Of a stretch of DNA of 33,324 bases, positions 1,467-30,100 are shown one piece after another. Under the pieces are notes generated by a model. That model was not told where the DNA came from. It saw only the letters and a program-made list of their open reading frames with translations, and ran no database searches. Made by a program: the position numbers and the translations under genes. The first letter of the stretch is position 1, and every line of letters begins with the position of its first letter. The stretch comes from a virus: positions 1 through 33,324 of the IMG/VR virus record IMGVR_UViG_3300028837_002155; one strand, given 5' to 3'.

Positions 1467-1716
1467 TCGATTCCTTAGTAATCGTTCTCTTGAGTTCAGT
1501 CTCAGCAATTGAAAGTGCCAATAAGCGAATTGCTTGTCGTACTTCATTCAAATCAAATATTTCAATTTTCTCCAGAATCTCACGAGCACGTTGTTGATAA
1601 TATCTGGGATCACCAATAGCGGCAATAGCCATCATAGGTCCAGGACTACCTGGCTTAAAGGCGCAACTCAACAACACTCTCTTGATCGCAACAAACGTCA
1701 GCTTCTTCTTTGGCAT
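1456..1716 (-). CDS. Hypothetical protein (86 aa)
   Basis: Unrecognised. ATG 1716 is chosen over the longer frame to 1827 because GGGAG lies seven bases upstream and the residues before it look like an out-of-frame shadow. The protein runs MPKKKLTFVAIKRVLLSCAF, then a Gly/Pro/Met segment and a helical C-terminal half (REILEKIEIFDLNEVRQAIRL). It overlaps the 3' end of the preceding gene by 62 bases, which is long even for this compact genome. A palindromic site at 1491-1504 lies inside it. Confidence 0.6.
   Translation of the reverse strand: MPKKKLTFVAIKRVLLSCAFKPGSPGPMMAIAAIGDPRYYQQRAREILEKIEIFDLNEVRQAIRLLALSIAETELKRTITKESNDY
1491..1504. promoter_or_regulatory. Palindromic site TGAG-TTCAGT-CTCA
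   Basis: Exact TGAG-N6-CTCA match, inside the 86-aa gene. It has the same centre as the copy at 9170. Confidence 0.6.
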
Positions 1717-2068
1717 CAATAGTCTCCCGATTTGGCCCAAACATTCTAGGTCGTTTCTGCCGCCAACGTTTGAGCAGATTCTTGGACGCTTCCTGCAATA
1801 ATTCTTGCTCCTGTAAGCCTTCAACACCTATCGCATCATAATGTTCCCATGTTTCCTCTGAACGCATTGCTCGAATCGACGACCAGTAATCCATTTCTTT
1901 ACTGAGTATGAAATCATGAAGCCAATCAAAAGCTTTTATATAATGATTGACTTTGTACTTTAATCCTTTCGCGACGTTGATTTGCTGCTTAGGAATACCT
2001 GCAATACGAAGAATCCTAACATAAGATTCCAATAATTTCTCAACGTCTTTCCTGGATTGCTTTGTCAT
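1655..2068 (-). CDS. Hypothetical protein (137 aa)
   Basis: A mostly helical, charged protein (MTKQSRKDVEKLLESYVRIL, then FDWLHDFILSKEMDYWSSIR) with a basic patch LLKRWRQKRPRMFGPNRE. No family is recognised. AAGG lies five bases before ATG 2068. It overlaps the upstream Rho_N-like gene by 29 bases. The basic patch would fit nucleic-acid contact, but that is inference. Confidence 0.7.
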   Translation of the reverse strand: MTKQSRKDVEKLLESYVRILRIAGIPKQQINVAKGLKYKVNHYIKAFDWLHDFILSKEMDYWSSIRAMRSEETWEHYDAIGVEGLQEQELLQEASKNLLKRWRQKRPRMFGPNRETIDAKEEADVCCDQESVVELRL

Positions 2069-2360
2069 TGATACCTTTCTTGCGTAATTCCCTACGAAGA
2101 TCGAACTTGGTCATACGACTATAGTTTTTAATTTTGTAATAACGTGATAAGTTAATCAGCTCACGTTTTGATAAATTCTTCAAATTAGTTTTTTCAAACC
2201 ATTCGCGAACAGACTCGATATCAATCTTATGAATAAATGTAATAAGCTCATTTCGTTTATCATGAGATGTACAATTCCAAACAGATGCAAATTCAGGATT
2301 CTGAATCAGGCGATTTATCGCCCTCAGATCCAGAGTTTTTCTGCGCATCTCCACTTGCAT
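2040..2360 (-). CDS. Rho_N/SAP-like small protein (106 aa)
   Basis: The C-terminal 45 residues (LKNLSKRELINLSRYYKI, then SRMTKFDLRRELRKKGI) follow the L..L....L..LA...GI..YS...K.ELI..L pattern of Rho N-terminal or SAP-type nucleic-acid-binding motifs. The rest is unrecognised. The start is uncertain: ATG at 2360 (MQVEMRRK) is taken, with 2348 and 2378 as alternatives. All three overlap the 3' end of the upstream gene. Its role is likely nucleic-acid binding, inferred from the motif only. Confidence 0.6.
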   Translation of the reverse strand: MQVEMRRKTLDLRAINRLIQNPEFASVWNCTSHDKRNELITFIHKIDIESVREWFEKTNLKNLSKRELINLSRYYKIKNYSRMTKFDLRRELRKKGINDKAIQERR

Positions 2361-2556
2361 TGCGGCCGGACTGTTCATTGGCTTCACGTGTTTGAGCCTC
2401 CAGTTTTTGAGCATGTGCTGTGAAGAAATCGCAGAGGTTCATATAGAGTCGTCCATCAGCTGGTCCTAAGTCTTCAGCCATGGATTTGTCTACTAACCCC
2501 TGCAATAACTCCGATAAAGAGTTCACATGACTCAAATATGCGTCTATATCGCTCAT
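2293..2556 (-). CDS. Hypothetical protein with polar tail (87 aa)
   Basis: Begins MSDIDAYLSHVNSLSELLQG. ATG 2556 overlaps the stop of the HNH-AP2 gene as ATGA, so the longer in-frame extension is rejected. Residues 1-60 are helical. The last 30 or so are a low-complexity Asn/Ser/Gly/Asp/Glu tail (SGRNASGDAQKNSGSEGDKS). No family is recognised. Confidence 0.7.
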   Translation of the reverse strand: MSDIDAYLSHVNSLSELLQGLVDKSMAEDLGPADGRLYMNLCDFFTAHAQKLEAQTREANEQSGRNASGDAQKNSGSEGDKSPDSES

Positions 2557-3044
2557 TTTCCTAATTCCTCTGGGAAATTCAATCTTGAATAATCTTTCCA
2601 TAAAGACCAAGCAGCTGCGTCATAAACTAAAGCCGCTTCTTTTGCTGTATTATACAGTCCGAGATGTGATTTTGTTCCTTGATAACAAATTTGTGCTCGC
2701 CATTTTTGATTCTTTTGTTCCCAAGAAACACCTTTATATCCAGAAATGTTATTACTGTTGGGACCACGATTGGCTTGATTTTGGGAATTTGTTGCAATTC
2801 TTATATTTGAATGTTGATTATTATGGCCATTACCATCAATGTGATCGATTTGACCTTTGAAACCAGGATTATACTTTTCCATAATGACGCGATGCATTTT
2901 AATATGTTTTCCATTAATTTTACTCTGGGCGTAAACAGTATTTCCCTTAGGGTGAGCCTGCCAGGAACATAAATTGAGTAGAAACTCAAAATCCTCGTCA
3001 TCAACAAGAGCTTCATATCCTTGAGTAAGTGGAATAATTTTCAT
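2553..3044 (-). CDS. HNH homing endonuclease with AP2 domain
   Basis: A 163-aa free-standing endonuclease. The HNH_3-type core has H51, the I-D-H-I-D-G-N-G segment at 67-73 and N80. An AP2-like DNA-binding domain covers about residues 100-157 (ISGYKGVSWEQKNQKWRAQI, then YNTAKEAALVYDAAA). This architecture is established for phage and plastid mobile endonucleases, which nick DNA and promote spread of their own gene. It sits immediately after the DNA polymerase (TAATG overlap) with no intron signs visible. All expected catalytic residues are present, so it is probably active. Confidence 0.9.
   Translation of the reverse strand: MKIIPLTQGYEALVDDEDFEFLLNLCSWQAHPKGNTVYAQSKINGKHIKMHRVIMEKYNPGFKGQIDHIDGNGHNNQHSNIRIATNSQNQANRGPNSNNISGYKGVSWEQKNQKWRAQICYQGTKSHLGLYNTAKEAALVYDAAAWSLWKDYSRLNFPEELGK
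2975..2988. promoter_or_regulatory. Palindromic site TGAG-TAGAAA-CTCA
   Basis: Exact match, extended to TTGAG/CTCAA at 2974-2989. It lies inside the HNH-AP2 gene near its start. Confidence 0.55.
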
Positions 3045-5389
3045 TATTTTTCACTCCAATTCTTCATTTTAGTCGACCAGTCTATTGATATTAAAGGAAT
3101 AATTGAACGATATGTTTCAACTTTCTCCTTCACAACTCTTGTAATATCATCACTAATTTTAGGAATGCAGGTAACTAAAATCTCATCGTGAACATTCATC
3201 GGAGCCACAAACCATTCATGTACTCCCGACGGCTGTAAATTCCAAATAACACATTCAACAGCTTTTGTAATGCCGGCACCCGTTGATTGGATAACGTGAT
3301 TAGCTGCGGCGCGCATGTTGTTTCCTTGAAGACCAAAAGCGGCCCCAAACAAAGCGCTACGAACTGCTCCACAAGCAGTTTGTTCACGATCGCGCCGCAC
3401 AACCTTAAGTCGTATTTTAGTCCATTCCCCCGGTGGATTTTCGGCAAGTTGAAAAAGAGCTTTGCAAATTTGATTCTCAAGAGTAAAATATCGTCGAAAT
3501 CCAAGCAATGATTCAATGTATTCTTGAGGTTCATGCCATTCAACTTTGCTTCCGATACCGCCGGGTTGCCTCATCGAGCAAAACTTCTCAATGATCTGTT
3601 CCCGAGCTTTAGCAACTCCAGGATACCGTTTATAGAATCTATCAAACGTATTTTGGGCAACCTCTTCCGAAACACTAAGCCGTTTAACCAGAGTATTAGC
3701 GTCACCACCGTAATTAAGACCGAACACACCGCGTTTACCATCTAGATAATAGTCTCTACCGGTTTTAACACCTTTCGAAGCCATAATTGATTCGTATGTC
3801 TGATCCGGAAAAAGAGCCTCAGCAAGTAAAGCATGAATCTTTTTACCGCTTTTGAGATCATTTTCAAGACCTTTATCTTTGTAGACAGCTGCTGAGATAC
3901 ACACCTCGAACGATTCAAAGTCACCGCCGTCTAATTGAGTTCCAGGATCTTGAAGCGTGAAACAAGACCTCACAAACTTGGTGTTGATGACACCTTGTGC
4001 ATTAAGTCCATCAGCGCCAGACATTCTGGTTGATAAGGTTCCGATAACCTTGAATGACGCATGAAATCTTCTAGCTTTGAGAAGCTTGTCGTAAGTTTCA
4101 ACTTCTTTGCCTGCGGACCGGGCATCACGAACATCACGTGCCCGGAGGGCAGCAGGATGCGGGTTATTTTCGTCATCTTCCCACCCATTAAGCCATTGAA
4201 TTATGAGTCCATCTTCACAACGATCGCATTTACCATCAGGACACTCACACTTAGTCTCATCTTTTGGACCGGTAAGCTTCTGGAGAACCTCATCCCCGGT
4301 CCCATCAGCCTCAATAACAAGAAACTCTTCCTCGTCCATAACCTGACGAAGCCATCGCTTCACTGCTGAAGGGGCTGTCGGGGCTCCTGCAGCCCGCACC
4401 AAAGCATCTTTACGTTGTATCGCAATCTTATCCAAATTAACCGGAAAACCGTGCCACCGAACAGCACCAACCATACAGGCAAGGACACTATCGTCGTCAC
4501 CAGAAATAGAATCAACAAACTTAGGATGATGATGCAAGTCCCTAGTGTATACAACATCATTTTTTGCATATTTCTGAGCCCTTTTATTATAATACCAATG
4601 ATCAATATGACGCTGAATTACTTCAGGCCACGTCCAATTCCATTTTCCAGGCTTACCCCAAGCTAATGCAAATGGGGCATAACCGCCTTTCTTTTTTGGA
4701 CCTTCATATGGTCTGAATCTTGAGTCCACTTCAACATCGGTGAATCTGTCGATAAGTTCCGGTTTGACTCCAAGAAGATGTTCAGCCAATGATTTGAGCG
4801 ACGCATCGGGTTTGAACTTGAGTACAACATCACGGAAGTCTGAGTGAACGACACCATCCTTATCTTTAGACTCTGTAATATTCCATTGTGGTGCGTGTTT
4901 ATTCTTTCTATCATTGAAGTAGATTCCGTCAAGTTGAACACGATTCGCAAGTTCCGAGCGGAGACGATCTACCATAATCGCCGGTACTTTTTTGATTCTA
5001 ATATCTTTACGAGCCATGAGACATTGGTAAGGGCCTTTTCGACTATAAAGCATCAAATCCAAAGCGTTTTTTGGCTTTAAACAAATGTTCGTGAAACGTG
5101 CCTTCTCTTCCAGAATCGCTAATTCATCAATATGGTCCTCTGGAATTGCATTGTGATCCGGAAACAATTTGAATGTCGTGTATATTTTGCAAAGATGAAA
5201 ATGGTCAAAAGCAAGGTGGAAACCCACAACCGTATGCTCCATCATCCACTCAATGAGACTTAGAGTCTTGTGAATCGGTTCTTTCCACGGGTGAAAAAGT
5301 ATAACTGGACCATCATCTACTGCATACTGAATTAGTACACACATGCCATGGAAGCCACAACACTCAGTATCGTAATGAAGGAATTTCAT
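3044..5389 (-). CDS. Family A DNA polymerase with 3'-5' exonuclease
   Basis: 781 aa, the replicative polymerase of the phage. The N-terminal proofreading domain has DEDD residues: D7/E9 in DTE, D62 in FHLAFD, and Y274-A-K-N-D278. Polymerase motifs are A (D490-F-E-S-F-E495), B (K552-R-G-V-F556-G-L-N-Y560-G) and C (H734-D735-E736). Phe at the 556 position corresponds to F762 of E. coli Pol I, which disfavours dideoxynucleotides. There is no 5'-3' exonuclease domain. An unusual Cys cluster (C381, C383, C388, C391) between exonuclease and polymerase domains could bind zinc. The start overlaps the previous stop (ATGA). Confidence 0.95.
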   Translation of the reverse strand: MKFLHYDTECCGFHGMCVLIQYAVDDGPVILFHPWKEPIHKTLSLIEWMMEHTVVGFHLAFDHFHLCKIYTTFKLFPDHNAIPEDHIDELAILEEKARFTNICLKPKNALDLMLYSRKGPYQCLMARKDIRIKKVPAIMVDRLRSELANRVQLDGIYFNDRKNKHAPQWNITESKDKDGVVHSDFRDVVLKFKPDASLKSLAEHLLGVKPELIDRFTDVEVDSRFRPYEGPKKKGGYAPFALAWGKPGKWNWTWPEVIQRHIDHWYYNKRAQKYAKNDVVYTRDLHHHPKFVDSISGDDDSVLACMVGAVRWHGFPVNLDKIAIQRKDALVRAAGAPTAPSAVKRWLRQVMDEEEFLVIEADGTGDEVLQKLTGPKDETKCECPDGKCDRCEDGLIIQWLNGWEDDENNPHPAALRARDVRDARSAGKEVETYDKLLKARRFHASFKVIGTLSTRMSGADGLNAQGVINTKFVRSCFTLQDPGTQLDGGDFESFEVCISAAVYKDKGLENDLKSGKKIHALLAEALFPDQTYESIMASKGVKTGRDYYLDGKRGVFGLNYGGDANTLVKRLSVSEEVAQNTFDRFYKRYPGVAKAREQIIEKFCSMRQPGGIGSKVEWHEPQEYIESLLGFRRYFTLENQICKALFQLAENPPGEWTKIRLKVVRRDREQTACGAVRSALFGAAFGLQGNNMRAAANHVIQSTGAGITKAVECVIWNLQPSGVHEWFVAPMNVHDEILVTCIPKISDDITRVVKEKVETYRSIIPLISIDWSTKMKNWSEK

Positions 5390-5601
5390 TTGATTTTTAA
5401 CAAAAGTTTATGTTTTGAAATTTCTTCACCGGTTACATCGTAAAGCATTAAAATTCCTTCTTCATAGTTTATACAAATTGATGAGACAAAATCATCGATT
5501 TTGAAGTCTCCAATCGGAACTTTGAGTTTGCAATCATAAAATATAATTGTATTATTTGTTAATTCATCGTATTGTACCCAATCAAATAATTGTTTTTCCA
5601 T
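5386..5601 (-). CDS. Small hypothetical protein (71 aa)
   Basis: A beta-rich protein beginning MEKQLFDWVQYDELTNNTII, with alternating hydrophobic strands and a basic C-terminus (KHKLLLKIK). It is unrecognised. The start at 5601 directly follows the preceding stop, and its stop overlaps the polymerase start by 4 bases, so expression is probably coupled to the polymerase. Confidence 0.7.
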   Translation of the reverse strand: MEKQLFDWVQYDELTNNTIIFYDCKLKVPIGDFKIDDFVSSICINYEEGILMLYDVTGEEISKHKLLLKIK

Positions 5602-5859
5602 TTAATTCACACCGCTAGAGGCTTGACTCGAAGTGTTCCTTCCCAATGCAGAACACAATTGATTATACAAATCCCCAGAATATTTTCCAGTAGCCAATCC
5701 TGCCCAATCTACATTTTCAGTATTATCGAGAACTTGAACCTGAAGCAAATGTCTTTGTGTATACCCTTTCGAGTACAGAAGAATTCCCAAATTATCTTCA
5801 TTCATCCAATTTGAGCCGAGATCCTCGTTCCACGTCAGCTCCACTGTCATTGATGGCAT
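5602..5859 (-). CDS. Small hypothetical protein (85 aa)
   Basis: Begins MPSMTVELTWNEDLGSNWMN. GAGG six bases before ATG 5859 supports this start, although it lies 62 bases inside the upstream gene. It is a soluble acidic protein with no recognised motif. It belongs to the small-gene cluster just upstream of the polymerase. Confidence 0.65.
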   Translation of the reverse strand: MPSMTVELTWNEDLGSNWMNEDNLGILLYSKGYTQRHLLQVQVLDNTENVDWAGLATGKYSGDLYNQLCSALGRNTSSQASSGVN

Positions 5860-6040
5860 AAGTATCCTCGAACCTTTCTATGTGAACCATGAATTGACAG
5901 GCATCACAAACTAGATAATGTTTCCAGGATGAACATTCATCAAACAAATGAATCCCGCGACAACAAAAATAATGTCTCCAGAATCGCAGTATCAGACCAT
6001 AGCTTAAAAACCAAGAATACGTAATTCCATAATAATTCAT
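5798..6040 (-). CDS. Small Cys-rich hypothetical protein (80 aa)
   Basis: The start ATG 6040 is preceded by TTGAGG nine bases upstream, the same initiation layout as the phosphoesterase gene at 9377. Residues 2-24 are aromatic and hydrophobic (YGITYSWFLSYGLILRFW) and could be a membrane helix or a buried core. They are followed by CC, C, and CDAC cysteines with His residues that could chelate metal. The upstream sequence TTGAGGTTAAAATCA is a one-mismatch version of the TGAG-N6-CTCA palindrome. No family is recognised. Confidence 0.55.
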   Translation of the reverse strand: MNYYGITYSWFLSYGLILRFWRHYFCCRGIHLFDECSSWKHYLVCDACQFMVHIERFEDTYAINDSGADVERGSRLKLDE

Positions 6041-6067
6041 TGATTTTAACCTCAAAAATGTGAACTA

Positions 6068-6133
6068 AGGATGACGAGAATCGAACCGCATTACGGATTT
6101 CCGCCCGGTGCCCTACCGTCAGATGACATCCCA
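6068..6133 (-). other. Degenerate tRNA-like sequence
   Basis: Read on the minus strand, GGATG near the 5' end pairs with CATCC at the 3' end, and a GGTTCGATTC T-loop-like motif is present. However, the T-stem does not pair beyond about two base pairs. No anticodon loop with U33 and a good stem can be drawn. It is likely a decayed tRNA or tRNA-derived spacer rather than a working gene. Confidence 0.45.
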
Positions 6134-6148
6134 CTCACTTTGGCCAAG

Positions 6149-6221
6149 AGCCAAGGGTCAGAATCGAACTGACGACAAATTGATTACAAATCAATCGCTC
6201 TACCAACTGAGCTACCTTGGC
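6149..6221 (-). tRNA. tRNA-Thr (UGU)
   Basis: A full 73-nt cloverleaf on the minus strand. The acceptor GCCAAGG pairs with CCTTGGC. The D-arm is GCTC/GAGC, and the anticodon stem ATTGA/TCAAT carries loop TTTGTAA with anticodon TGT at 6188-6186. The T-arm is GTCAG-TTCGATT-CTGAC. No CCA is encoded and the discriminator base is U. All stems are perfectly paired. It probably supplements translation of ACA codons. Confidence 0.95.
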
Positions 6222-6224
6222 AAA

Positions 6225-6288
6225 TGGCTACGATGACTTTCCGAGACTGATGCGGTGGCCTGCCAATGCTCAGCGTCCATCCGCAGCC
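6225..6288 (-). other. Structured spacer with 7-bp closing stem
   Basis: On the minus strand GGCTGCG (6288-6282) pairs with CGTAGCC (6232-6226), with one G-U, as an acceptor-like stem ending three bases before tRNA-Thr. An alternative internal hairpin pairs 6251-6258 with 6277-6285 (one bulge). The length is 64 nt and no T-loop or anticodon arm is evident. It is possibly a decayed tRNA or a processing structure. Confidence 0.35.
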
Positions 6289-6301
6289 AAAATTACCCTT
6301 G

Positions 6302-6378
6302 GCCTGACTACACCAGGCTGCACTTCTACGCTAACCTTGCATGTTTTGATCTGACTACACCAGATCGCACTTCTATGC
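6302..6378 (-). repeat. Two tandem tRNA-half-like hairpin units (47-nt period)
   Basis: Units at 6348-6378 and 6302-6331 each contain, on the minus strand, a small GCRT-AGAA-GTGC hairpin followed by a stem-loop with an identical 7-nt loop GTGTAGT. The loop stems are GATCTG/CAGATC and GCCTG/CAGGC. Two base pairs differ by compensatory changes, which argues for selected RNA structure. The pair resembles a D-arm plus anticodon arm (loop U33, then GUA) without acceptor or T-arm. The function is unknown. Confidence 0.6.
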
Positions 6379-6442
6379 TGACCGGGATGCTTTGGCACTC
6401 CGACCTACTGGCAAAACAATACAAAGCTTACTGGCAAGGGAA

Positions 6443-6515
6443 TAGGGCGTAGGGGATTTGAACCCACTGATACGAGATTGAAGGTCTCGTGTGCTAACCA
6501 CTACACTAACGCCCC
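6443..6515 (-). tRNA. tRNA-Glu (UUC)
   Basis: A 73-nt minus-strand cloverleaf. The acceptor GGGGCGT pairs with ACGCCCT (terminal G-U). The D-arm region is TAGTGTAGTGGTTAGCAC. The anticodon stem CGAGA/TCTCG has loop CCTTCAA and anticodon TTC at 6482-6480. The T-arm GTGGG-TTCAAAT-CCCCT has one mismatch. The discriminator is A and no CCA is encoded. It would read GAA and GAG codons. Confidence 0.9.
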
Positions 6516-6520
6516 AAAAG

Positions 6521-6584
6521 TACGGGCGACGAGGTTCGAATTCGTATTATCTTCTATCGATGAAGATGACTTACCATAACCGCA
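6521..6584 (-). other. Degenerate tRNA-like sequence (CGA anticodon loop)
   Basis: On the minus strand an anticodon arm TCTTC-ATCGATA-GAAGA (6566-6550) has U33 and a CGA triplet. It is followed by a 4-nt variable region and a T-arm-like ACGAATTCGAACCTCGT. The acceptor pairing is imperfect and the D-arm region is only about 11 nt, too short for a D-stem. It is likely a decayed or truncated tRNA. It lies between tRNA-Glu and the stop of ParB-like protein 1. Confidence 0.4.
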
Positions 6585-6598
6585 GTACGCGGCCTTGC

Positions 6599-7567
6599 TT
6601 AGTTGATAAGCGCTGCTGAGTCTTTAACAGTCGTATGTAGGGATGCTGCAACATCAGGCTCCGTTTCCACAAGACGGTTTGTGCTGCCTTTACCTGCCTC
6701 AACACTTGAAATTGGAATACGATAGAATTTATCAACTTTCTTACACTCATTTCTAATATCAAAAAACAACTCGGCAGTGTTAATCTCTCCATTTGTCCAA
6801 GCCATACATCGGGTTGCAAACCCAAATCCTGGTCCTTCTTTACCAATATGACGCATCATTTCTTGAACTTCATTTTTCGCACGACGCTTCTTTTTGAAAG
6901 GATTATCTTTGGGCTTACTGATGCTTACGCCCCTTTCACCACGAAGCATTGCATTCTTGATATTTCGGACAGCTTCGTACTGAAGTTCAGCAAGTTTCGC
7001 TGGATCGTTGGTCTTGCGTTTAAGACCATAAATTTGTTTAATCTGGGCGTTGTTGAGAATACCTGCGGCCGCTTCCTCCTGAATTACCTCAGGCAATTCA
7101 AGTAAATTATAGCGAACCTGTACCCAACTACGATTACGTCCTATGGCTTCGGCTGCCTTCTCTTGAACAAGCCCAAGATCCTTTAACTTTGAAAGAGCGT
7201 TTGCCTCCTCCATGATATTTAGCTCGCATCTTTGCAAGTTCTCAGTCAAGTTATAAACGCGAGCCTGAATCTCACTAAGGCCGTGCTTAATCATCGCAGG
7301 AATTACATCTCGCCCAAGTACTCTATATGCCATATGACGACGGTGACCAGCAACGATTCTGAACTCAAAAGGTTTGGGCAAACCACCATCTACATCTTCG
7401 GCTCCTTGAACGGATATTGGAAATTGAAGCCCATTTTTATCAATATCACCAGCAAGAGTAGCCACATCATAAGGAGCAATACGACCCCTACAATTGAAAT
7501 TATTGTCCGATAAGATCGTTGCCATGGGTATGAGTTTAACCTCATAATTACTCATAACGTCGGTCAT
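6599..7567 (-). CDS. ParB/Spo0J-like DNA-binding protein 1
   Basis: 322 aa. A ParB N-terminal domain covers about residues 8-115, with the conserved IVAGHRRHMAYR box (G74-H-R-R77; CTP- or nucleotide-binding motif in true ParB) and ENLQR at 110-113. A helix-turn-helix follows at about 134-158 (VQEKAAEAIGRNRSWVQVRY). The C-terminal 130 residues are unrecognised and include a KKKRRAK basic patch near 240. ParB-family proteins bind 16-bp palindromes and can spread on DNA, or act as nucleases or regulators in phages. It overlaps the upstream HNH gene by ATGA. A TGAG-N6-CTCA site lies at codons 8-12. Confidence 0.85.
   Translation of the reverse strand: MTDVMSNYEVKLIPMATILSDNNFNCRGRIAPYDVATLAGDIDKNGLQFPISVQGAEDVDGGLPKPFEFRIVAGHRRHMAYRVLGRDVIPAMIKHGLSEIQARVYNLTENLQRCELNIMEEANALSKLKDLGLVQEKAAEAIGRNRSWVQVRYNLLELPEVIQEEAAAGILNNAQIKQIYGLKRKTNDPAKLAELQYEAVRNIKNAMLRGERGVSISKPKDNPFKKKRRAKNEVQEMMRHIGKEGPGFGFATRCMAWTNGEINTAELFFDIRNECKKVDKFYRIPISSVEAGKGSTNRLVETEPDVAASLHTTVKDSAALIN
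7531..7544. promoter_or_regulatory. Palindromic site TGAG-TTTAAC-CTCA
   Basis: Exact match within the first codons of ParB-like protein 1, 23-36 bases after its start codon. Confidence 0.65.
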
Positions 7568-8085
7568 TGATATTTCTCCAAATAGGTTGCGGCTCGTCTT
7601 AGAGTTTCTGGGTTATCATAATAGTATCCTAACCCTGTGTTACAATTATGACATAAAAGGCCGCGTACTTTTCCCGTTTCATGGTCATGATCCACAGATA
7701 ATGAAACATTTTTAATACACTTATTACCGCAAATTTCACATTTTCCGTCCTGAAATTTGAGTTTGTACTCAATCCATTCCGGCGAAACATCATATTTGTA
7801 TATACAACTTACAGCATTGTTTTTAGCTCGAAGGCATACTTTGCATCTTGCACGTTTCCCATTCAATCCGGTTTCGTGAAGACTGAATTGATCCCAAGGC
7901 TTATAGATTAAACATTTTGTACAAGCTCGTCCTTTTTTATCAACTCTTAAAGAGGTTTTACTGCCACAAAAACATTTCTTACATTTGGGTTGCTTACCAT
8001 TTACTCCAGTCGGATGGTCATAAAATTCATTCCACAACTTAAACACACCACAAAAAGTACAATTTCGCCCCTTTTTAGTTATCAT
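7564..8085 (-). CDS. Endonuclease VII-like HNH protein
   Basis: 173 aa. Two N-terminal zinc-finger-like repeats share a GR.CT.C...K.W..F..H.TG.NGK....CK.C pattern (C9, C12, C35, C38 and C55, C58, C81, C84). The C-terminal recombination endonuclease VII core has CEIC at about 116-119, D132-H-D-H135, RGLLCHNCN at 141-149 and a GLGYYYDNPETL tail. T4 endonuclease VII resolves branched DNA; small phage versions with extra zinc fingers are usually mobile HNH endonucleases. All catalytic residues are intact. It overlaps both neighbours by ATGA, which suggests insertion into an existing gene junction. Confidence 0.9.
   Translation of the reverse strand: MITKKGRNCTFCGVFKLWNEFYDHPTGVNGKQPKCKKCFCGSKTSLRVDKKGRACTKCLIYKPWDQFSLHETGLNGKRARCKVCLRAKNNAVSCIYKYDVSPEWIEYKLKFQDGKCEICGNKCIKNVSLSVDHDHETGKVRGLLCHNCNTGLGYYYDNPETLRRAATYLEKYQ
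7758..7771. promoter_or_regulatory. Palindromic site TGAG-TTTGTA-CTCA
   Basis: Exact match, extended to TTGAG/CTCAA. It lies inside the endonuclease VII-like gene. Confidence 0.55.
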
Positions 8086-9377
8086 CCTTCAGGCCCAGCA
8101 AGTGTGACTTTATACTTCTTAGGACCATCCACCTCCTCTTCTCGCCTCAACTTGATAGGAAGACGCCAACTTATTCCTCTATTTTCACCGGATTTAACTC
8201 CGTGTAAAAGTTGCATTGGCTCATTATAACCAGAAAGACCTTCGAAAATATAAGGATCAGTTCCAATCCATGCGCCATTAATAATAGTCTCATTCTTGAG
8301 AATTGCTTGCGTCCCAAGAGCGTGAAAATGGCCAATACAATAATAATTAATCGTTCGTCCGTGAGCTGCATTAAGCGCCGTGAGTCGTTGAGTTTTGCGA
8401 GCAATCCCGTACCAAGGGATACCTGCCCAACCCTTAATTCCGTCTCCGTGCTCACAATGGAAATTATAACCTTCAATTTCCACAACTGCTGAAAACGCTT
8501 CTGGGATAATGAACTCAACGTGAGCTAGCTCAGCACAATAAGCCCTAGCTGTTTCGGCAATCAGATAATCCCATGAATCCCAAGCGTGATGATAATCCTT
8601 CTTTGCAACGTCCTTACGGCGACCATGATTCCCAGACAAATATAACACTTTAATTTGTGGAAACCAAGCACTTAATTCACGGATCATTTGACCATGAAGT
8701 TGTCCAATGGCCAAACAGTTTCTCATCATATTCCCGTAATGGGTATTGATGACATTTTGGCGAATCTCACCTGATGTGTGGTCACCATAAGCCAAAATAT
8801 ACAAAGTCTCAAAACTATACCCAGCCATCCTATTCTGAGTATAATCAAGAATTGTTTCAACCAAATTTTCGCCCCGAGCCAAAGCAATATTAAAATCGTG
8901 ACGCTCAAGATTCTGAACCATATGTGGATGAATCATAGCATCATGATGCCCATCGCTCATATGTAGGACACACGACTCTTTAACAGGGCCACGTTGCTGT
9001 CTTTTCCACATATGATACGGAGGAGCAAGCGGTTGTACCAATTCCTTCATTTGCTCGCCCAAAATGCGCAATGTCGCATCACCTTTCTGAGCGATCCGGA
9101 GCTGTTGTCGCAGCTTCCGATTTTCGTCAATAAGAATCACGTTCTTACCTTGAACCTTATTGAGATCACTGAGTTCAGTCTCAGTTGGTTCAGGTTTGGC
9201 CACCGATGCTTTCTTTTCTCTTTTTCGTTCTACGCCGGCATCATCAAGCCATCTCTGTAATGACCCACGTGAACAACCTAAATTACGCGCGGTTGCAGCT
9301 ATAGTTTCACCACACTTAACTGCTTCTACTGCTCCAGTAATTTGTTCAACAGTGTATAATTTTTCAAAGTCGGTCAT
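8082..9377 (-). CDS. HTH-metallophosphoesterase fusion (431 aa)
   Basis: Residues 10-50 form a helix-turn-helix of resolvase or small-terminase type (ETIAATARNLGCSRGSLQRW). A basic and helical linker follows (about 50-115), then a calcineurin-like phosphoesterase domain. Metal-site motifs are D142-G-H144, Y-G-D199-H, G249-N-H251-G, H-C-E-H-G-D-G and G-H-F-H. The family hydrolyses phosphodiesters or phosphomonoesters; phage members next to replication genes are proposed DNA exonucleases or phosphatases. ATG 9377 is chosen over the in-frame TTG at 9392 because GAGG lies nine bases upstream. That GAGG is part of the palindrome at 9377-9392. Confidence 0.85.
   Translation of the reverse strand: MTDFEKLYTVEQITGAVEAVKCGETIAATARNLGCSRGSLQRWLDDAGVERKREKKASVAKPEPTETELSDLNKVQGKNVILIDENRKLRQQLRIAQKGDATLRILGEQMKELVQPLAPPYHMWKRQQRGPVKESCVLHMSDGHHDAMIHPHMVQNLERHDFNIALARGENLVETILDYTQNRMAGYSFETLYILAYGDHTSGEIRQNVINTHYGNMMRNCLAIGQLHGQMIRELSAWFPQIKVLYLSGNHGRRKDVAKKDYHHAWDSWDYLIAETARAYCAELAHVEFIIPEAFSAVVEIEGYNFHCEHGDGIKGWAGIPWYGIARKTQRLTALNAAHGRTINYYCIGHFHALGTQAILKNETIINGAWIGTDPYIFEGLSGYNEPMQLLHGVKSGENRGISWRLPIKLRREEEVDGPKKYKVTLAGPEG
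9170..9183. promoter_or_regulatory. Palindromic site TGAG-TTCAGT-CTCA
   Basis: Exact match inside the phosphoesterase gene. It has the same 14 bases as the site at 1491. Confidence 0.6.
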
Positions 9378-22505: not shown

Positions 22506-22897
22506 TGTTTTATGCCCTCAAATTCAATTTGAATATCGGCTAATGTTTCACCCGTGTTAACATTACCAGGAATAGCTTGACTATTTTCAAATTCATTTGG
22601 ATTTGTCGTAATCCATCCAAGCCAAAGTTGATCCAAATGATCCAGTAACATGATTCGTGTGCGATAATAAGCAACTAAAAATGCACGAAACTCAAGTGCC
22701 TTCATCCGTGTCACACGAAAACGCATTTGTAATCGCTTACGCCCATTTTTTGATTTAACATAAGTATATCTTGTATTATCCATACTGCGTTTAGTTGTAA
22801 CAGATGCCATAAAAGATTCCGAATCACCAAACTGAGGATTCGGAAGAAACACATGCACTTCGATTAAAGGGTATGGAGCACCGAATCTTACACTCAT
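22502..22897 (-). CDS. Distal tail-domain protein (131 aa)
   Basis: A single-domain protein with KRLQMRFRVTRMKALEFRAF, then LVAYYRTRIMLLDHLDQLWLGW, ending IQIEFEGIKQ. The same pattern of motifs closes the upstream repeat protein (TLQVFADPTWPKLQILALTF... ISFEFEGELQ), so the two share a paralogous tail domain. It is probably a distal tail or tail-tip adaptor. It overlaps both neighbours by ATGA. Its position between the tape measure region and the hub fits. Confidence 0.75.
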   Translation of the reverse strand: MSVRFGAPYPLIEVHVFLPNPQFGDSESFMASVTTKRSMDNTRYTYVKSKNGRKRLQMRFRVTRMKALEFRAFLVAYYRTRIMLLDHLDQLWLGWITTNPNEFENSQAIPGNVNTGETLADIQIEFEGIKQ

Positions 22898-24309
22898 TGT
22901 AATTCACCTTCGAATTCAAATGAAATGTCCACAATATCTCGTCGTGAACGAACAAATGGTTCATCAGGCGTTATAATAACGCCATGCCATATGCGACCAT
23001 CCCAGTCTTCGAAGCCAACTTCCAAACCAAGTGAATCAAGAAAAAATTGTTGTACCGCGGCAGCTTCAGTTTCCGTCAAACCCGTAAAGGTCAATGCTAA
23101 AATCTGTAATTTTGGCCATGTTGGATCAGCAAAAACTTGCAACGTACCTCCACGAGATTCACGTTGGATTCGCATATTTTGCAATCGATCACGATCCCCA
23201 AGCATAGGTGCTCGAATTTGAACAGCTTTTGTCGGGATTACTGTTGGCCAATATAGTCTTACATGATTTTGACGTACTAACGTTGGGGCCGTGGATGATG
23301 GTGGTGTCGGTGCGTTTGGATCTGAACTATAACCTAAAACTGGATCATAAATACAAAGACTACCAACACCATCTGTAATGAATGCGTGTTGAAAAACTAA
23401 ATTATCAGAAGCTATCGGAAATCTTATACTATTGTATTCAGCATATGATTGACTCCAAACTATCCAATGTTTAACGAGTCGTATAAAGTCATCATCCATC
23501 ACATCCGTGAATACGAATGTCTGTTGAAGAATTTGTTCCTTAGGAAAACCAGCCCAATGTGTGAAAACAAGACTATTACTAGTAGAATGTGATGTAGCTG
23601 TTGCTTTAATCCATGTCCTGGCAACATTATCCGTGAAAACAAGATTACTAGGAATAGCATCTACTTCAATACCGCCTGGAATAATTAGACCGCCACCGGC
23701 GATATGAGTAAACATTAATTCCTGTACAAAAGTAACAAAGTTACAATCTGCTTGCTGTGTGAAGCTAAATGCTTGAGTTACTCCAACATCGATACTAGAA
23801 GGATTTGAACAATTATCGGTGAAAATAAATCCTTGTATAAGCTCCGCACAATATGGCATCACAACGAGCGAATGTGAAAAGCTAAATGCAGAAGTTGCTG
23901 ATACTGCAAACCCTTGATTAAAAGTTAAAGCCTGTGAAAACTCAAGACCTTGTGCAATTGTATGATCCGTGATACTACTATCAGCAGTTTGTGAAAATTC
24001 AAGACCCTGTGCAACAGTATAAGAAATTGATCCTGTATAGGCAAGAGTTTGTGAAAATTCAAAATTTTGTGCGGTCTGCAAACCAATGATAACAGTGGTT
24101 TCTTGTGCAAAGTCCAATGACTGTGCAGTCTGTATATTGATACTGACACTGCTTCCTTGCGAAAAAATAAGACTATGATCAACAGTTCTATTAAAAACTT
24201 GAGGCGCACCAGATTGAGTTAAAACTTCAACAAATTGCCTTGTAGCACGAAGTTCCCCGTCACCAGTCGAAGCGACTTCAATATCTTGTCGTGTAACTCT
24301 TAGGACCAT
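22894..24309 (-). CDS. Repeat-containing tail protein with distal-tail domain
   Basis: 471 aa. Residues about 40-310 contain some thirteen copies of a short motif, hydrophobic-x-F-S/T-Q/H/D (SLIFSQ, SLDFAQ, NFEFSQ, GLEFSQ, FSFSHS, FIFTDN, FSFTQQ, LVFTDN, LVFTHW, LVFQHA), spaced roughly 17-40 residues. This suggests a beta-repeat or solenoid-like fibre. Residues about 350-471 are the domain shared with the 131-aa downstream protein. It is likely a tail-tip or fibre component exposed at the tail end. The start is four bases after the upstream stop. Confidence 0.75.
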   Translation of the reverse strand: MVLRVTRQDIEVASTGDGELRATRQFVEVLTQSGAPQVFNRTVDHSLIFSQGSSVSINIQTAQSLDFAQETTVIIGLQTAQNFEFSQTLAYTGSISYTVAQGLEFSQTADSSITDHTIAQGLEFSQALTFNQGFAVSATSAFSFSHSLVVMPYCAELIQGFIFTDNCSNPSSIDVGVTQAFSFTQQADCNFVTFVQELMFTHIAGGGLIIPGGIEVDAIPSNLVFTDNVARTWIKATATSHSTSNSLVFTHWAGFPKEQILQQTFVFTDVMDDDFIRLVKHWIVWSQSYAEYNSIRFPIASDNLVFQHAFITDGVGSLCIYDPVLGYSSDPNAPTPPSSTAPTLVRQNHVRLYWPTVIPTKAVQIRAPMLGDRDRLQNMRIQRESRGGTLQVFADPTWPKLQILALTFTGLTETEAAAVQQFFLDSLGLEVGFEDWDGRIWHGVIITPDEPFVRSRRDIVDISFEFEGELQ

Positions 24310-24313
24310 GATA

Positions 24314-25366
24314 TTATCCTACTTCGACGCCAAATTGTGCTGCATTTACACCGGCTTCAATCCAAGCTGCTGATGTATGGGGATCTTGCTCTAAAATACG
24401 TTCACGATGAGTATAAGTAGTGGAACCCACAGGCTCTGCTGAACCTGCACTCACCGTGGTACTTGATTTGCATGGTTGTTTCAATGTAAAGATATTAACA
24501 TCTGTTTCACGTACTGTAGTATTGATTTGGACGCCTAGGATATCCCCGAGACTACCTGGCATAGATTCGTAATTATAGAGATCACGGTCCGTACTTGTAC
24601 TACTTTCAACATAACTAGTATCATCATCGGATACCACTTCATCAACACACTCATAATTTGACCCAGCACTCGGTGTGAAGTCCGTTTCATCTCCAGCACT
24701 ATTCGGAAAGATTCCAGACACCATGCAAACACCAAGGAAATTATTGTTCACACTACCAGCATCATCACAAATATAGATGTCATCATACGTAAAATTATAC
24801 GTAGCATCTGTGGTTCCATAAAAACGTACAGCGGCCACATCAGCGAGTGCACCTTGTAGCGTGTCTTTTGAGGTTAAACTCAAAACACTATTTTCATCAA
24901 CTTTAACGTCCACAGTTCCTGCTGAATTGTCGAGGAAGATTTTAATCTCAATATAATACCAAGTTTCAGTCGATAACCCGGCGGTTGTTGATCTTCCAAG
25001 TTCTGACCCGCGCCGCTCAACTACAATTTCTCCACCTGAAGTGATTTGCACATTGATTCCAAAATCAATGTATTCCTCAATAAAATAAAGAATATTTGTA
25101 TCAGCAATCGGTAATACATCACATTTCCATGCAAAACCAATGATGATAGTATCAATCGCTGCAGCTGTATTCAAAGCTGGTGTTTGAATATATGGATTAC
25201 CGGTTGTGTTCGTATTCCAAGCAAATGTTCCAGCGCCTGCACGTCCTTGAACAAGAGTACCAAGACCTTCAACACGATAAGTCAGATATTTTCGGGATAT
25301 ATCATTATTGGCAGAAATAGTACCAATACCACCAAAGCCTTCAAAGCCTTCAACCCATCTTAACAT
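24314..25366 (-). CDS. LamG-like tail protein, paralog B (350 aa)
   Basis: N-terminal MLRWVEGFEGFGG motif, then a lectin/concanavalin-like jelly-roll domain (IIGFAWKCDVLPI; YYIEIKIFLDNSAGTVDVKV; YDDIYICDDAGSVNNNFLG). The C-terminal domain ends ILEQDPHTSAAWIEAGVNAA, then QFGVEVG. It is a paralog of the adjacent 25366-26388 protein along its whole length, with an almost identical C-terminus. GGAGG and AGGATA precede ATG 25366. It is probably a receptor-binding or tail-decoration protein. A palindromic site lies at 24869. Confidence 0.8.
   Translation of the reverse strand: MLRWVEGFEGFGGIGTISANNDISRKYLTYRVEGLGTLVQGRAGAGTFAWNTNTTGNPYIQTPALNTAAAIDTIIIGFAWKCDVLPIADTNILYFIEEYIDFGINVQITSGGEIVVERRGSELGRSTTAGLSTETWYYIEIKIFLDNSAGTVDVKVDENSVLSLTSKDTLQGALADVAAVRFYGTTDATYNFTYDDIYICDDAGSVNNNFLGVCMVSGIFPNSAGDETDFTPSAGSNYECVDEVVSDDDTSYVESSTSTDRDLYNYESMPGSLGDILGVQINTTVRETDVNIFTLKQPCKSSTTVSAGSAEPVGSTTYTHRERILEQDPHTSAAWIEAGVNAAQFGVEVG
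24869..24882. promoter_or_regulatory. Palindromic site TTTTGAG-GTTAAA-CTCAAAA
   Basis: The half-sites extend to 7 bp each (24866-24885), the longest flanking match of the set, inside the LamG-like paralog B gene. Confidence 0.55.
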
Positions 25367-26388
25367 TATCCTACCTCCACACCAAATTGAGCTGCATTTA
25401 CACCAGCTTCAATCCAAGCCACTGATGTATGTGGGTCTTGTTCTAAGATACGTGTTTTCGTAATATATGATTGAGTATTTAAAACAACACCAGCATCAGT
25501 ACTAAGAGTTGTACTAGATTTACAAGGTTGTTTAAGGGTATAATTTGTTTCATCGGTTTCACGCCCCGTTGAATTCATTTGCAAACCCTTGATAACATCG
25601 ACACCAGCCATTGAAGCGTAATTATAAAGATCACGATTTGTTGAAGTTGAATCCTCAACATATGTTGTATCATCATCTTGTGGATTCTCGTCCACAGCCG
25701 CATAATTTGCGCCGGCGCTTGGTGTCCAATCTGTATCATCCCCTGCACCATCCGGAAGAATACCATCTACCCGAATACTACCAAGAAAATCATTATTAAC
25801 TGATCCAGTGGTATCACAAATGTAAATATCATCATATGTGTAAGCTTGAACTGTTGAGTTCCCATAAAAACGAGCGCCTTGTGCTGTAGTTGTTGCACCA
25901 ACTTTTGTGTCTATGTTTGTTAAAGCAAATTGTTCAACACCATTGATTTTGAGAGTTGCTGATCCAGTTGTGTCATGAACCGTCATTTTTAATTCAATAT
26001 AATGATATGCCCCTGGACGTAAAGAAACAGTAGATGCCGCAAGAATAGTTGTACCACGACGTAAGACAAGTTTATTACTTGCAAACATTGAAAGATTGAG
26101 ACCTAAAGCTGCATTACCTTCAATAATATACATAACAATAGCACCATGCGCGAAAGCTGAAAATTTAAACGCAAATCCAATTATAATTTCTGAAATTGTA
26201 CCCAGATTTGGGGTTTGAAAATATGGATTCGATGTAGTTGAAGTATTTAATGCACGACTCATACGTCCTGTCTCAATACCAGCCATATTGGCCGTACGAT
26301 TTACTGTCGGATATTTTCGATCAATATCTGGAGTTGGGGCACCAGTGGTTCCAAAATGTTCGAAACCTTCAACCCAAAGTAAAGCCAT
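25366..26388 (-). CDS. LamG-like tail protein, paralog A (340 aa)
   Basis: Same architecture as its neighbour: WVEGFEHFGTTG start, jelly-roll LamG-like body (IIGFAFKFSAFAHGAIVMYI; YHYIELKMTVHDTTGSATLK; YDDIYICDTTGSVNNDFLG) and a C-terminal DGILPDGAGDDTDWTPSAGA segment ending in QFGVEVG. Tandem duplication followed by divergence is the simplest history. GGAG lies seven bases before ATG 26388. It lies directly after a strong terminator, so its expression requires read-through or an unseen promoter. Confidence 0.8.
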   Translation of the reverse strand: MALLWVEGFEHFGTTGAPTPDIDRKYPTVNRTANMAGIETGRMSRALNTSTTSNPYFQTPNLGTISEIIIGFAFKFSAFAHGAIVMYIIEGNAALGLNLSMFASNKLVLRRGTTILAASTVSLRPGAYHYIELKMTVHDTTGSATLKINGVEQFALTNIDTKVGATTTAQGARFYGNSTVQAYTYDDIYICDTTGSVNNDFLGSIRVDGILPDGAGDDTDWTPSAGANYAAVDENPQDDDTTYVEDSTSTNRDLYNYASMAGVDVIKGLQMNSTGRETDETNYTLKQPCKSSTTLSTDAGVVLNTQSYITKTRILEQDPHTSVAWIEAGVNAAQFGVEVG

Positions 26389-26416
26389 GATGATTCTCCA
26401 TTTTACGTCGTGGAGT

Positions 26417-26455
26417 AAAAAAGCGGCCGGGGTAGATGACGACTCTACCCCGGCC
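26417..26455 (-). terminator. Strong intrinsic terminator
   Basis: A perfect 12-bp GC-rich stem pairs 26425-26436 with 26444-26455 around a 7-nt loop. On the minus strand it is followed by GC and six T residues. It lies just after the stop of the 240-aa gene. Confidence 0.9.
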
Positions 26456-26461
26456 TAATGA

Positions 26462-27184
26462 CTAGCTCGTTGAAGCGTTAACTGTGTAAGTCACCTTCAA
26501 TTGGTCACCATTCGAAACGGCAACATCGCCACCACTGAACAATGCAGTGGACCACAACGTATTACCCGCAGTATGGTCACCCTTTGTTTGGGCTTCACCG
26601 TCGTCACCAACAATGAAGATACCTTTGACCGTACCAGCGCCCGTAATATCAAAAATCGCCTTCGTTGACGTATTGGTGATCGACTGACCAGATGCAGCAT
26701 CCGGCGGCCACTCAGGTCGTGTAGTCGTGGAATCACCATTGTTGGCATCCGTATACGACGAAAACGTATCCCATTCATTTCCAGCTTGATCAATATCATC
26801 ATACGTGTCTGTCGCATCAAGAGCCGTATAACCCGTCAGATTAATCAGACCCATGTACCACGCCGTTCGTTGCGTACCGGAATCAAAATACACATTCAGA
26901 TTGTTGTCAAGCCCTTCATTCGTGATACCATTTGGGAACTCACGAACATCAATGACTTCACCATTGCGAATATGTTCAACCTTGAACATACCACATTGTC
27001 GAAACATACCTTCGGCACGCGGAAAACGTCGATTCCGCGACTCATCACCCCACTTCGGACCGCCGGGCGTTTTACCGATTTCAACATCAGCCTTATCAGG
27101 CTGCCAACGACGCTTCTCGCGCTCAATTTGCTGGTCTCGCATGGCCGCAAACCGACGCCTACGCTCTAACTGTCGTTCATTCAT
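26462..27184 (-). CDS. Phage structural protein, tail-associated (240 aa)
   Basis: The N-terminal 35 residues are highly charged and helical (NERQLERRRRFAAMRDQQIE). The rest has the pattern FPNGITNEGLDNNLNVYFDS, then WYMGLINL, and ISN/FDITGAGTVKGIFIVGDD, ending in GDQLKVTYTVNAS. This pattern is familiar from structural proteins of unknown exact role near tail fibre genes. It overlaps the tape measure stop by ATGA, with AGGAGA five bases upstream. A strong terminator follows directly. Confidence 0.75.
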   Translation of the reverse strand: MNERQLERRRRFAAMRDQQIEREKRRWQPDKADVEIGKTPGGPKWGDESRNRRFPRAEGMFRQCGMFKVEHIRNGEVIDVREFPNGITNEGLDNNLNVYFDSGTQRTAWYMGLINLTGYTALDATDTYDDIDQAGNEWDTFSSYTDANNGDSTTTRPEWPPDAASGQSITNTSTKAIFDITGAGTVKGIFIVGDDGEAQTKGDHTAGNTLWSTALFSGGDVAVSNGDQLKVTYTVNASTS

Positions 27185-30100
27185 CGACTTCTCCTGGTAT
27201 TAAATGTTTGTCGTCTAGACTCGCGTTTAATTGCTTTCATTATTTCACGAGCCGTTTCACGTGGACTAGCTTCCTCAGGAACCTCAATATTAATGTCTCC
27301 AAAATTGTTGGTGGTACCGGTATCTACCCGATTGAAAGAAGGCATGATGCCAGCATTCATCGCTTGAATTTGTGGAAAAAACTTTCGTGTCGCATTAACT
27401 GTGTTGAAAGATTCACCAGGTTGTGCTAGAACCGGAACACTATCCATTCCAATTTGACCACCGGCAGCACGACGTATCGGATCAAACGCAAGTCCACCTA
27501 ATTGTCTACGAACTAAAGCACCATAATGTGCCATTTGACCACCACTAGCTGCTGTTTTTTGACGATAGGCATCAGCTGCAGCAAGTGTAGCTCGTGCTTC
27601 CCTACCTAAAGCTGAAACTGCTCGATTAGAAGCATCAGTAGCTTTGTCACCTGCATCCGTTGCTTTAATACCTAACGTATCCATCGCTTCACCGGCCGCT
27701 TTATTAGCTTCTTCAAGAGGAGCAAGTGTTTCAGCAGACATAGCCTTTCTAGCGGCTTCTTGTGCTTTATCAACTACACCATCAAGTTTATCAATAACAG
27801 CTTGAATAGCTTTAGCAAGTGTAGGATAACCTTGAACTCCGGCACGAGTCGCTAATTCAGTCATAGCGAATAATGCCTGCTTCGCGGTTTTTGCTCCTTC
27901 TGGACTAAAATTATCAGGGGATAATGATTTTTCTATCGCTGTTTCTAATTCAGTAAAACGTGTAACAATACCTCTGACTGTTGGATCTAATCTATTGAAT
28001 TCTGCAAAATTGGAACCAGTGAAAAAATTAGAAAATATTGTCGCAAATCGTTCTACACTATTACCCAAATCAAGAAATGCAAAAGATTGTGAAGTAAGAT
28101 TTCCAAGTTTCCCAAAGAACCCTGCATCAGGATCAACCGCGAAACCTCGCATCTGGCGACCCATCTGCAAAGCAACTTCCATCACATTAATTGCGGCTCC
28201 ACGAGCATCAACCAATTCATCTTTCCAAGCAGCTGTTGCTGTTTGCATTTCCAGCATTGAAGTTGCTGCTTCACTCGTATCCTTCTCTACTTTAGGTAAA
28301 GCTTTTTGAGCTTCTTCCATTCCCCGACCACCAATTTCAACTCCCGTCAATTTTTCAAAAGCAATTTTTTCTCCTTCAGGTATTGAATCAGCTTGAGCGT
28401 TCAATTTAGCAAGAATTCGGCCGAGGTTAATATCAATAACCTCAGTAAAATCAATCTTAACACCTGTTATCGGATCGCGAAAAGCTTCCTCAAATTTTTT
28501 CCTAAACGCCGTTACTTCAGGTTCATATTGTTCAAGAATCCGGGCATTTTTACCACCTAAATCATATTCTTCCTGAATTATAGTGGTAAGCTTCCTCATT
28601 TTCTCCCGAACACTTTTCAAATCAATATCAGGCGATACTTCACCTTTATCAATAATCTCTTGTAGTTTCCTGACTTCAGCTTCAAAAGCTTTGATACGAA
28701 CAAGACGCGCTTCTTCCTCAGCACGAATTTTATCTGCTGTTTTCTTTGCACTAATCTGCTGCTGTGCAATGGTATTTTGAATACGCAATTGTTGTTGCTG
28801 TGCAGATAGTGTTTGTTCTACAGCTTTAGCAATACTAGCAGAATTCTTTGAAGAATCAGCAGTACGTACAGCTTGTTTAGCGACTGATTCTGCTTGTTTT
28901 GCTAATTCTTTCGCACGTTCTCGATCGCCAGCAAGTAATGCTCGATTCGAATCACGAACTAAATCTTGTGAACGTTGAATCTGTCTCCATGATTTCTGTT
29001 GATCATTAAGACCCTTGATGCTACGTTCAAAATTGAAATCTGCGATTGATTTTTGAATACTACGAGTTTCATTCTCTAACGTTTTTAAAGCATCAGCTGC
29101 TTTTTCAGTTGCATCACGTACAATACCGACAAATTGCTCATAAGCACCAAATCGTGCTTCCATCTGATCATCAATACTACCAAAAACAGCATTCTGCAAA
29201 CCTTCAGCAAAATCTGCATCTTGTTGCCAGAGCTGTTGTTTCTTCTGCAAAAATTGTTGTAATCTTGCAAAAGTTGATTCTTCAGTTTCTTCAATTGCTG
29301 CGCGCCGAGCTTTTTCAGCACGTATACTGGACTTTGCTGCCTCGGCATTCGCTTCTTTTATCCTATCACGAGCACGTTCAGCCGCATTTGAAACCTGATT
29401 ATATACTACAACAATCGCAGCTATAGCAGCGCCTAAAGCAAGAGCCCCACCTAATGGAGTCAAAACGAAACTTGTTGTTGCCCCTAAAGCTGCAAGTGCA
29501 GCTGCTTTAACACTCGTAAAGGACGCGATAAGCGCAATACTTTTGGTAATGACTCCAGTAGCAAAAATTATATACGCTGAGGCTGCGGTAGCGGCGGCTG
29601 CTGTTATAGCTGCTAAAGCTTCAGGGCCACCACCTAATACAGCAAATGCTGTATTTAGTAATTTAATAGTACTTTTACCAAAAGTATCAGTGAATATATT
29701 CTTGATTCTAGTGAGTTCAACCTCAAATTTCTTGGCATCAGTTTCAAAAATTGTTTCAAAAGCTTTACCAAGATCCTCAGCACCTGCAACTTTAATCTGG
29801 TCTAAAGCTTCAGCAAATTGCTCAGCTTTACTACCAGCCAAACCTAATACACCCCGAATGGCTCGCACACGATTAAACAAATCACCAATTTCAGATGCTG
29901 AATCACCCGTTGCTTCAGTTAATTTATTAAGAAAACCTTCAAAACCAAATGCCTGGATTCCGGCTTCTGCTGATGCTATACCCAATTCTTTGAAGGCTTG
30001 CTTCAAATTATCAGTTGGACGAATCAATTTCAACTGAATATTATTGATTAGGGTAAATGCTTCATTGTATTTCAAACCCTGAACCGTTAAAGTTGCAACG

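Follow-up and report, generated by a model that had tools for sequence, protein, structure and literature searches.

Dispersed operators are already known from the plasmid repressor KorB and from the stoperators of cluster A mycobacteriophages, and genome-wide sites for a ParB paralogue are known from Noc. KorB of plasmid RK2 is a ParB-fold repressor that acts at dispersed 16-bp operators (OB) on a mobile replicon and that, as a clamp, slides from its operator and silences promoters at distances of over 1 kb (PMC11790492). Noc of Bacillus is an orphan ParB paralogue whose 16-bp dyad (NBS) occurs genome-wide and whose specificity is set by a few residues of the helix-turn-helix (HTH) (PMC7383237). 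The stoperators of L5 and Bxb1 number in the tens, coevolve with their regulator and include an autoregulatory site upstream of it (PMC6550527). ParB/parS systems, including the dispersed centromeres of N15, likewise combine a ParB-type protein with several 16-bp dyads. Here we describe an array of dyads in a linear 33.3 kb IMG/VR virus record (IMGVR_UViG_3300028837_002155, positions 1 to 33,324; this whole stretch is called the window), a tailed-phage segment that encodes two ParB-like proteins, ParB1 and ParB2. From sequence comparison we infer, with somewhat better than even confidence, that the phage's orphan ParB1 recognises these repeats, yTGAKTTYRAAMTCAr, as dispersed operator/loading sites.

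The first-pass annotation of the window had listed 20 exact copies of TGAG-N6-CTCA, and all 20 were recovered at their coordinates (Table 1). Other spacers between k = 0 and k = 24 yielded 0-3 copies each, bearing out the remark that they are nearly absent, and the expectation from half-site frequencies (0.57 copies) is close to the chance estimate of about 0.5. Codon-preserving shuffles gave a mean of 0.85 and a maximum of 6 copies in 1000 replicates. The statement that several copies are perfect palindromes had to be withdrawn, as the sole perfect 14-bp dyad is TGAGGTTAACCTCA at 13779 and the symmetry of the quoted TTGAGTTCAAACTCAA is broken at its central CA step. The motif had also been undercounted: 7 of 11 sites set aside as one-mismatch copies fall in a wider class, TGA[GT]-N6-[AC]TCA, in which half-site position 4 is G or T and which has 40 copies in 33 kb versus 4.0 +/- 2.0 in codon shuffles of the window. 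A symmetrised profile gives the full 16-bp consensus yTGAK-TTYRAA-MTCAr with a pyrimidine-purine centre, a step present in 17/20 exact sites.

The sites lie mostly within genes, with intergenic copies too, and one reading frame holds 23/30 of the intragenic ones, as might be expected if codon or amino-acid usage, or chance, had produced the array. The probability of such an origin is close to nil: codon-preserving shuffles, which rule it out, reach one tenth of the observed count, intergenic sites exist, and only k = 6 is raised. The clustering at 7.5-17.8 kb described earlier applies to the exact sites, 15 of 20 of which lie there, but the spacing of all 40 is about random (coefficient of variation 1.08 versus 0.96 simulated). 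An even, chromatin-like spacing was considered and is unsupported, the coefficient of variation being like random in 4/6 genomes, lower in G008 (p 0.02) and higher in G010. Any preference of the sites for start codons was slight and varied between genomes (p 0.007 in the window, p 0.006 in G010, none in G009).

Searches with ParB1 and ParB2 recovered first the collinear contigs G001-G004 and then a family of 27 contigs. Most genes of G001-G004 are roughly 50-70% identical in protein sequence to those of the window, and G002 and G004 are near-identical. The array is present in these related phages, with 6, 24, 11 and 27 exact TGAG copies in G001-G004 and 0-2 in a reversed-pattern control; the wider motif occurs 88 times in 60 kb of G004 and 37 times in 24 kb of G003. 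Across seven genomes, observed counts against codon shuffles were 40/4.0, 88/7.8, 37/2.4, 34/4.5, 37/5.7, 34/6.7 and 42/7.0, and each genome profiled showed an informative 16-bp dyad with a central YR.

The word itself changes across the family. Relatives whose ParB1 is 44-51% identical are (almost) without TGAG-N6-CTCA and are enriched for TGAT-N6-ATCA at equal spacing, which defines a TGAG clade (n = 5 phages) and a TGAT clade (n = 12 phages) with a common spacing. Deeper relatives alter the spacing as well, to TGAT-N5-ATCA in L049 and to GATT-N5-AATC in G018 (28 copies) and G020 (37). The stretches L065-L067 of G020 carry, besides these 37, a second dyad class (GATT-N4-AATC, 24 copies) with different flanking preferences, and the two classes may be separate ParB1 and ParB2 sites; a minor odd-spaced class occurs in G005, L022 and L045. 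Other strong repeats seen in the family are CCGG at 7/14-bp periods or GCGC/CGCG at 6-bp periods in G023 (L080-L081) and G018 (L062-L064), and a 15-bp tandem TAGT-N3-ACTA array at 55480-55744 of G025; these are likely coding tandem repeats.

The first-pass annotation had named two refuting checks. The array passed the one by codon shuffles; the other, conservation at orthologous positions, gave a divided answer: most positions are lost between the window and G004 (4/20 aligned intragenic sites kept), yet only 0.02 would be expected by density. Base identity between the two is 0.62 at sites and 0.61 in the background; intragenic copies turn over fast as density is kept. Because positions are mostly lost though above expectation, selection appears to act mainly on site density and not on fixed positions, as it would if coverage were selected together with a small number of operators at set places.

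To look for the array independently of ParB, we searched viral contigs for pairs of TGAGT-N4-ACTCA or of TGATT-N4-AATCA words 4-30 bp apart, which gave 50 matches, and a dense array was taken as about 0.85 sites per kb or more over >5 kb. Dense contigs were G002, G004, G013, G010, G034, G050 and G033, the first six of which encode ParB1. G033 is without ParB1, but a number of its genes share 43-54% identity with genes from the structural side of the window phage family, and the simplest reading is that it represents the structural half of a member; L092, a dense contig without ParB1, would most simply be read in the same manner. By these comparisons all array-dense contigs from the scan appear to be members of this phage family, G033 by structural-gene similarity. 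The short member stretches L094 (of G035, near-identical to G050) and L086 (of G029) have ParB1 in their records. Two 3.7 kb stretches, L111 and L114 (26% GC), carry 5 and 8 TGAT-N6-ATCA sites, and neither ParB1 nor ParB2 was detected in their records. No relatives were found in bacterial genomes by tblastn, and Yuavirus MP1412 and Casjensviridae phiAxp-2 showed no such array in the stretches examined. TTGAT-type half-sites resemble FNR-family halves, and a host regulator (CRP/FNR-like or a nucleoid protein) could in principle be what binds the array. We consider this very unlikely, since the scan confines the array to this phage family, the word changes with the phage HTH, and 40-90 mostly intragenic sites are unlike a host promoter pattern.

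One place at which sites recur is the region before parB1, which is shared with the divergent primase gene. In 17 phages, the 700 bp before parB1 hold 48 sites versus 14.7 expected from each genome's own site density, with a Poisson p of 5e-12 that is only indicative because the genomes are not independent. The usual pattern, found alike in TGAG and TGAT phages, is one site about 20-120 bp from parB1 plus a pair near the primase gene, whose true start in the window is likely 14647. We propose that this intergenic region is an operator region, possibly also a replication origin; predicted sigma-70 promoters within it were no more numerous than in shuffles.

ParB1 belongs to the ParB/Noc/KorB superfamily, with Pfam matches above the gathering cut-off and a PDB profile match to Spo0J (6e-24). 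Its AlphaFold2 model (pLDDT 83.5) returns Noc, ParB and KorB in Foldseek, with TMt 0.84 to Caulobacter ParB (6t1f_D). Comparison of the TGAG and TGAT clades yields 15 diagnostic columns in ParB1. The HTH holds four (W126, H136, L142 and F146; p 0.027), and 3/15 (H136, L142 and F146) fall in the 11-residue recognition segment (hypergeometric p 0.012). All four residues are found in every TGAG-clade ParB1 and in no TGAT-clade ParB1. In our alignment H136 corresponds to G170 of Caulobacter ParB, a DNA-contacting residue (PMC7383237). Apart from the two ParB-like proteins, a single HTH protein was found in the replication block, an exonuclease (8082-9392), which was considered as the binder and rejected, its HTH differing strongly between the window, G004 and G003 despite their common motif. 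Together, the parB1 cluster, the covariation of the helix and the exclusion of the exonuclease point to ParB1 as the probable binder.

ParB2 also has profile matches to Noc, ParB and KorB in PDB, with a canonical HTH and a KorB-domain match, and it is encoded by nearly all members with enough sequence. It may bind the array alone or with ParB1, and the paralogues could split even (N6) and odd (N7, GATT-N5-AATC) sites, in keeping with the two site classes of G020 and the minor odd class of the three contigs named above. We regard this as unlikely. None of its 8 diagnostic columns lies in the recognition helix, and the helix WVQVRYNLL spans the switch, TGAT phages G009, G011 and L022 matching the TGAG phages. 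No second dyad for ParB2 was found after masking in the window, G004 or G003, and the conserved site cluster is at parB1, not parB2.

Several observations weigh against assigning the sites to ParB1. The TGAG/TGAT switch was probably a single evolutionary event, so the covariation counts as one observation, and the helix statistics are modest (p 0.01-0.03). The deepest members keep the GATT half-site while their ParB1 helix diverges, and the deep members G017, G019 and G024 have ParB1 and no clear array. The loss of most orthologous intragenic positions counts on the same side.

How ParB1 might act is suggested by its residues at two catalytic positions of ParB. ParB requires the glutamates of GE78RR and E111NLQR to hydrolyse cytidine triphosphate (CTP), and mutants with glutamine at these positions keep CTP binding, closing and loading, spread further and do not recycle (PMC8494293). 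ParB1 has neither glutamate in 24/24 homologues, which sets it apart from canonical CTP-hydrolysing ParB: the first position is L67 in 23/24 and Thr otherwise, and the second is mostly G/A100. ParB2 has H/F/Y at the first position and keeps the Glu of ENLQR in 17/17. The C-terminus of ParB1 is a long Ala/Lys/Glu-rich helix. Lacking both catalytic glutamates, ParB1 is predicted to bind nucleotide and perhaps to close without hydrolysing it, and long-lived clamps may follow from the same lack. Since a site occurs every 0.7-1.8 kb, no part of the phage genome would lie beyond a KorB-type silencing range. We suggest that ParB1 dimers bind each site via their HTH, that they would repress the parB1 promoter and the divergent primase promoter, and that ParB1, as a CTP-type clamp, would load at the sites and slide onto flanking DNA, so as to coat or silence the phage genome in a manner like KorB or Noc rather than a partition centromere; ParB2 may modulate ParB1 action or bind a subset of sites.

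The array shares with KorB dispersed dyad operators, some at promoters and some distal. The two differ in the site sequence, in the missing hydrolysis glutamates of ParB1, in that no KorA partner was identified in the phage, and in the two ParB paralogues per phage. RK2 has about 12 KorB sites in 60 kb, versus 40 in 33 kb here. Unlike Noc, which works on the host chromosome and membrane and blocks division, the array is carried on the phage, at about 50 times the density of NBS by our estimate; its site differs from the NBS-type TATTTCCCGGGAAATA, and whereas Noc has a membrane-targeting N-terminus, the window ParB1 starts directly at the ParB_N domain.

A function as stoperators, in which a bound repressor directly stops elongating RNA polymerase without sliding, as in cluster A mycobacteriophages, would agree with the number and genome-wide spread of the sites and the autoregulatory site upstream of the regulator (PMC6550527), as well as with the location of most sites inside transcribed genes. 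Known stoperators lack symmetry, are 13 bp long and for the most part share one orientation relative to transcription (PMC6550527), and they serve a monomeric immunity repressor of another fold in temperate phages, whereas the array consists of dyads without orientation and its candidate binders are ParB-fold proteins. Moreover, 12 family records, which may be incomplete, contained no integrase and no consistent CI-like repressor (a single HTH_3 protein over threshold), and so give no sign of a lysogeny to maintain. Direct roadblocks are therefore, in our judgement, an improbable account of the array.

The pairing of ParB-family proteins with 16-bp dyads could also indicate a parS partition centromere of a plasmid-like prophage, given that phages of the L5 clade can replace the integrase by parABS (PMC6550527). 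However, a ParA-type ATPase (PF13614) was found in 0/12 records of up to 75 kb, the search control being positive in all 14 genomes, and the sites are far more numerous than in ParB/parS systems and spread all over the genome, denser upstream of parB1 and without a single centromere cluster. With no ParA in these possibly incomplete records a partition-type role is unsupported, and we hold it to be highly improbable. The first-pass annotation had proposed a dispersed operator, stoperator or parS-like array of a ParB-like regulator; the relatives, the helix covariation and the parB1 cluster favour dispersed sites of such a regulator, and the absence of ParA speaks against its parS variant. The assignment to ParB1 remains the one we prefer.

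Structural genes occupy one side of the window and a replication block the other, with a minus-strand operon of ParB1, two unknown genes, an SNF2-like helicase, the exonuclease, an HNH protein, ParB2 and DNA polymerase A, the last labelled from tblastn matches. No cultured phage is near, the best matches to ParB1 and ParB2 being <36% identical; the primase has only distant similarity to Yuavirus and Casjensviridae. Two minus-strand tRNA genes adjoin ParB2, Thr-tgt (6148-6221) and Glu-ttc (6442-6516). HNH / endonuclease-VII-like proteins at 2553-3044, 7564-8085 and 17289-17666, two of them alike, are unmatched among G004 open reading frames (ORFs) and are likely homing endonucleases. On the minus strand, the ORFs 19580-21514 and 21594-22505 correspond to two parts of a 1006-aa protein of G004 (30078-33098), and in the window the frame seems to have shifted between 21514 and 21594, either through a sequencing error or as a genuine change. 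The minus-strand genes 24314-25366 and 25366-26388 are tandem paralogues of about 340-350 aa, a family that expands in tandem, as G004 has three copies in a row.

Table 1. Coordinates in the window of the recognition sites and of the genes and region discussed with them.
Feature	Coordinates	Strand	Remarks
ParB1, 321 aa orphan ParB/Noc/KorB-fold protein, proposed array binder	13069..14034	-	Pfam ParB_N 4e-8, HTH_ParB 5e-7
ParB2, 322 aa ParB-like paralogue	6599..7567	-	Pfam HTH_ParB 6e-10, ParB_N 7e-8, KorB 1e-4
AT-rich intergenic region, parB1/primase divergent	14035..14613		3 sites + many half-sites
Primase-type replication protein	14614..17325	+	Pfam DUF5906 1e-15; PHROG DNA primase
Site TGAGTTCAGTCTCA	1491..1504		
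Site TGAGTAGAAACTCA	2975..2988		
Site TGAGTTTAACCTCA	7531..7544		within start of parB2
Site TGAGTTTGTACTCA	7758..7771		
Site TGAGTTCAGTCTCA	9170..9183		
Site TGAGTTTATCCTCA	9378..9391		at exonuclease start
Site TGAGTTCGCGCTCA	10986..10999		position kept in G004
Site TGAGTTCAAACTCA	13058..13071		at parB1 stop
Site TGAGGTTAACCTCA	13779..13792		only perfect dyad
Operator-like site	14060..14073		upstream of parB1
Operator-like site	14099..14112		upstream of parB1
Operator-like site	14564..14577		upstream of primase
Site	14642..14655		overlapping probable primase start codon
Site TGAGGTTGCACTCA	15837..15850		
Site TGAGGACAGACTCA	16980..16993		
Site TGAGTTTGGACTCA	17429..17442		
Site TGAGGACAAACTCA	17757..17770		at dNMP kinase start
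Site TGAGATATCTCTCA	22491..22504		
Site TGAGGTTAAACTCA	24869..24882		
Site TGAGTTCAACCTCA	29712..29725		
20 more TGAK-N6-MTCA sites (460..32218), first ten	starts 460, 1157, 1903, 2145, 4819, 5523, 6041, 10059, 11518, 15576		
20 more TGAK-N6-MTCA sites, last ten	starts 15933, 16181, 19150, 22244, 22325, 23970, 25054, 25141, 31571, 32205		

The literature searched yielded no phage family whose genomes each combine about 35-90 dyads with a pair of orphan ParB paralogues. That site density is kept while the word and the DNA-reading part of ParB1 change together suggests an undescribed phage-wide DNA-coating or gene-silencing system. More tentatively, and with rather less than even confidence, these apparently virulent phages may use two orphan ParB-fold proteins, one of them deficient in the hydrolysis glutamates, as permanent sliding clamps that coat the genome from end to end, in the manner of a chromatin or global silencer of the phage's own, and whose sites are selected for density rather than position. 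Many ParB-like proteins of phages are orphans to which no function has been assigned, as a 2025 survey notes (PMC12704722). For one such family the array supplies a definite DNA target, together with a predicted operator region and a naturally occurring switch in specificity, which makes its function directly testable. If ParB1 is indeed a hydrolysis-deficient clamp, it would be a natural counterpart of the engineered E78Q/E111Q ParB mutants, and the array would represent a new means by which phages organise or silence their own genomes.

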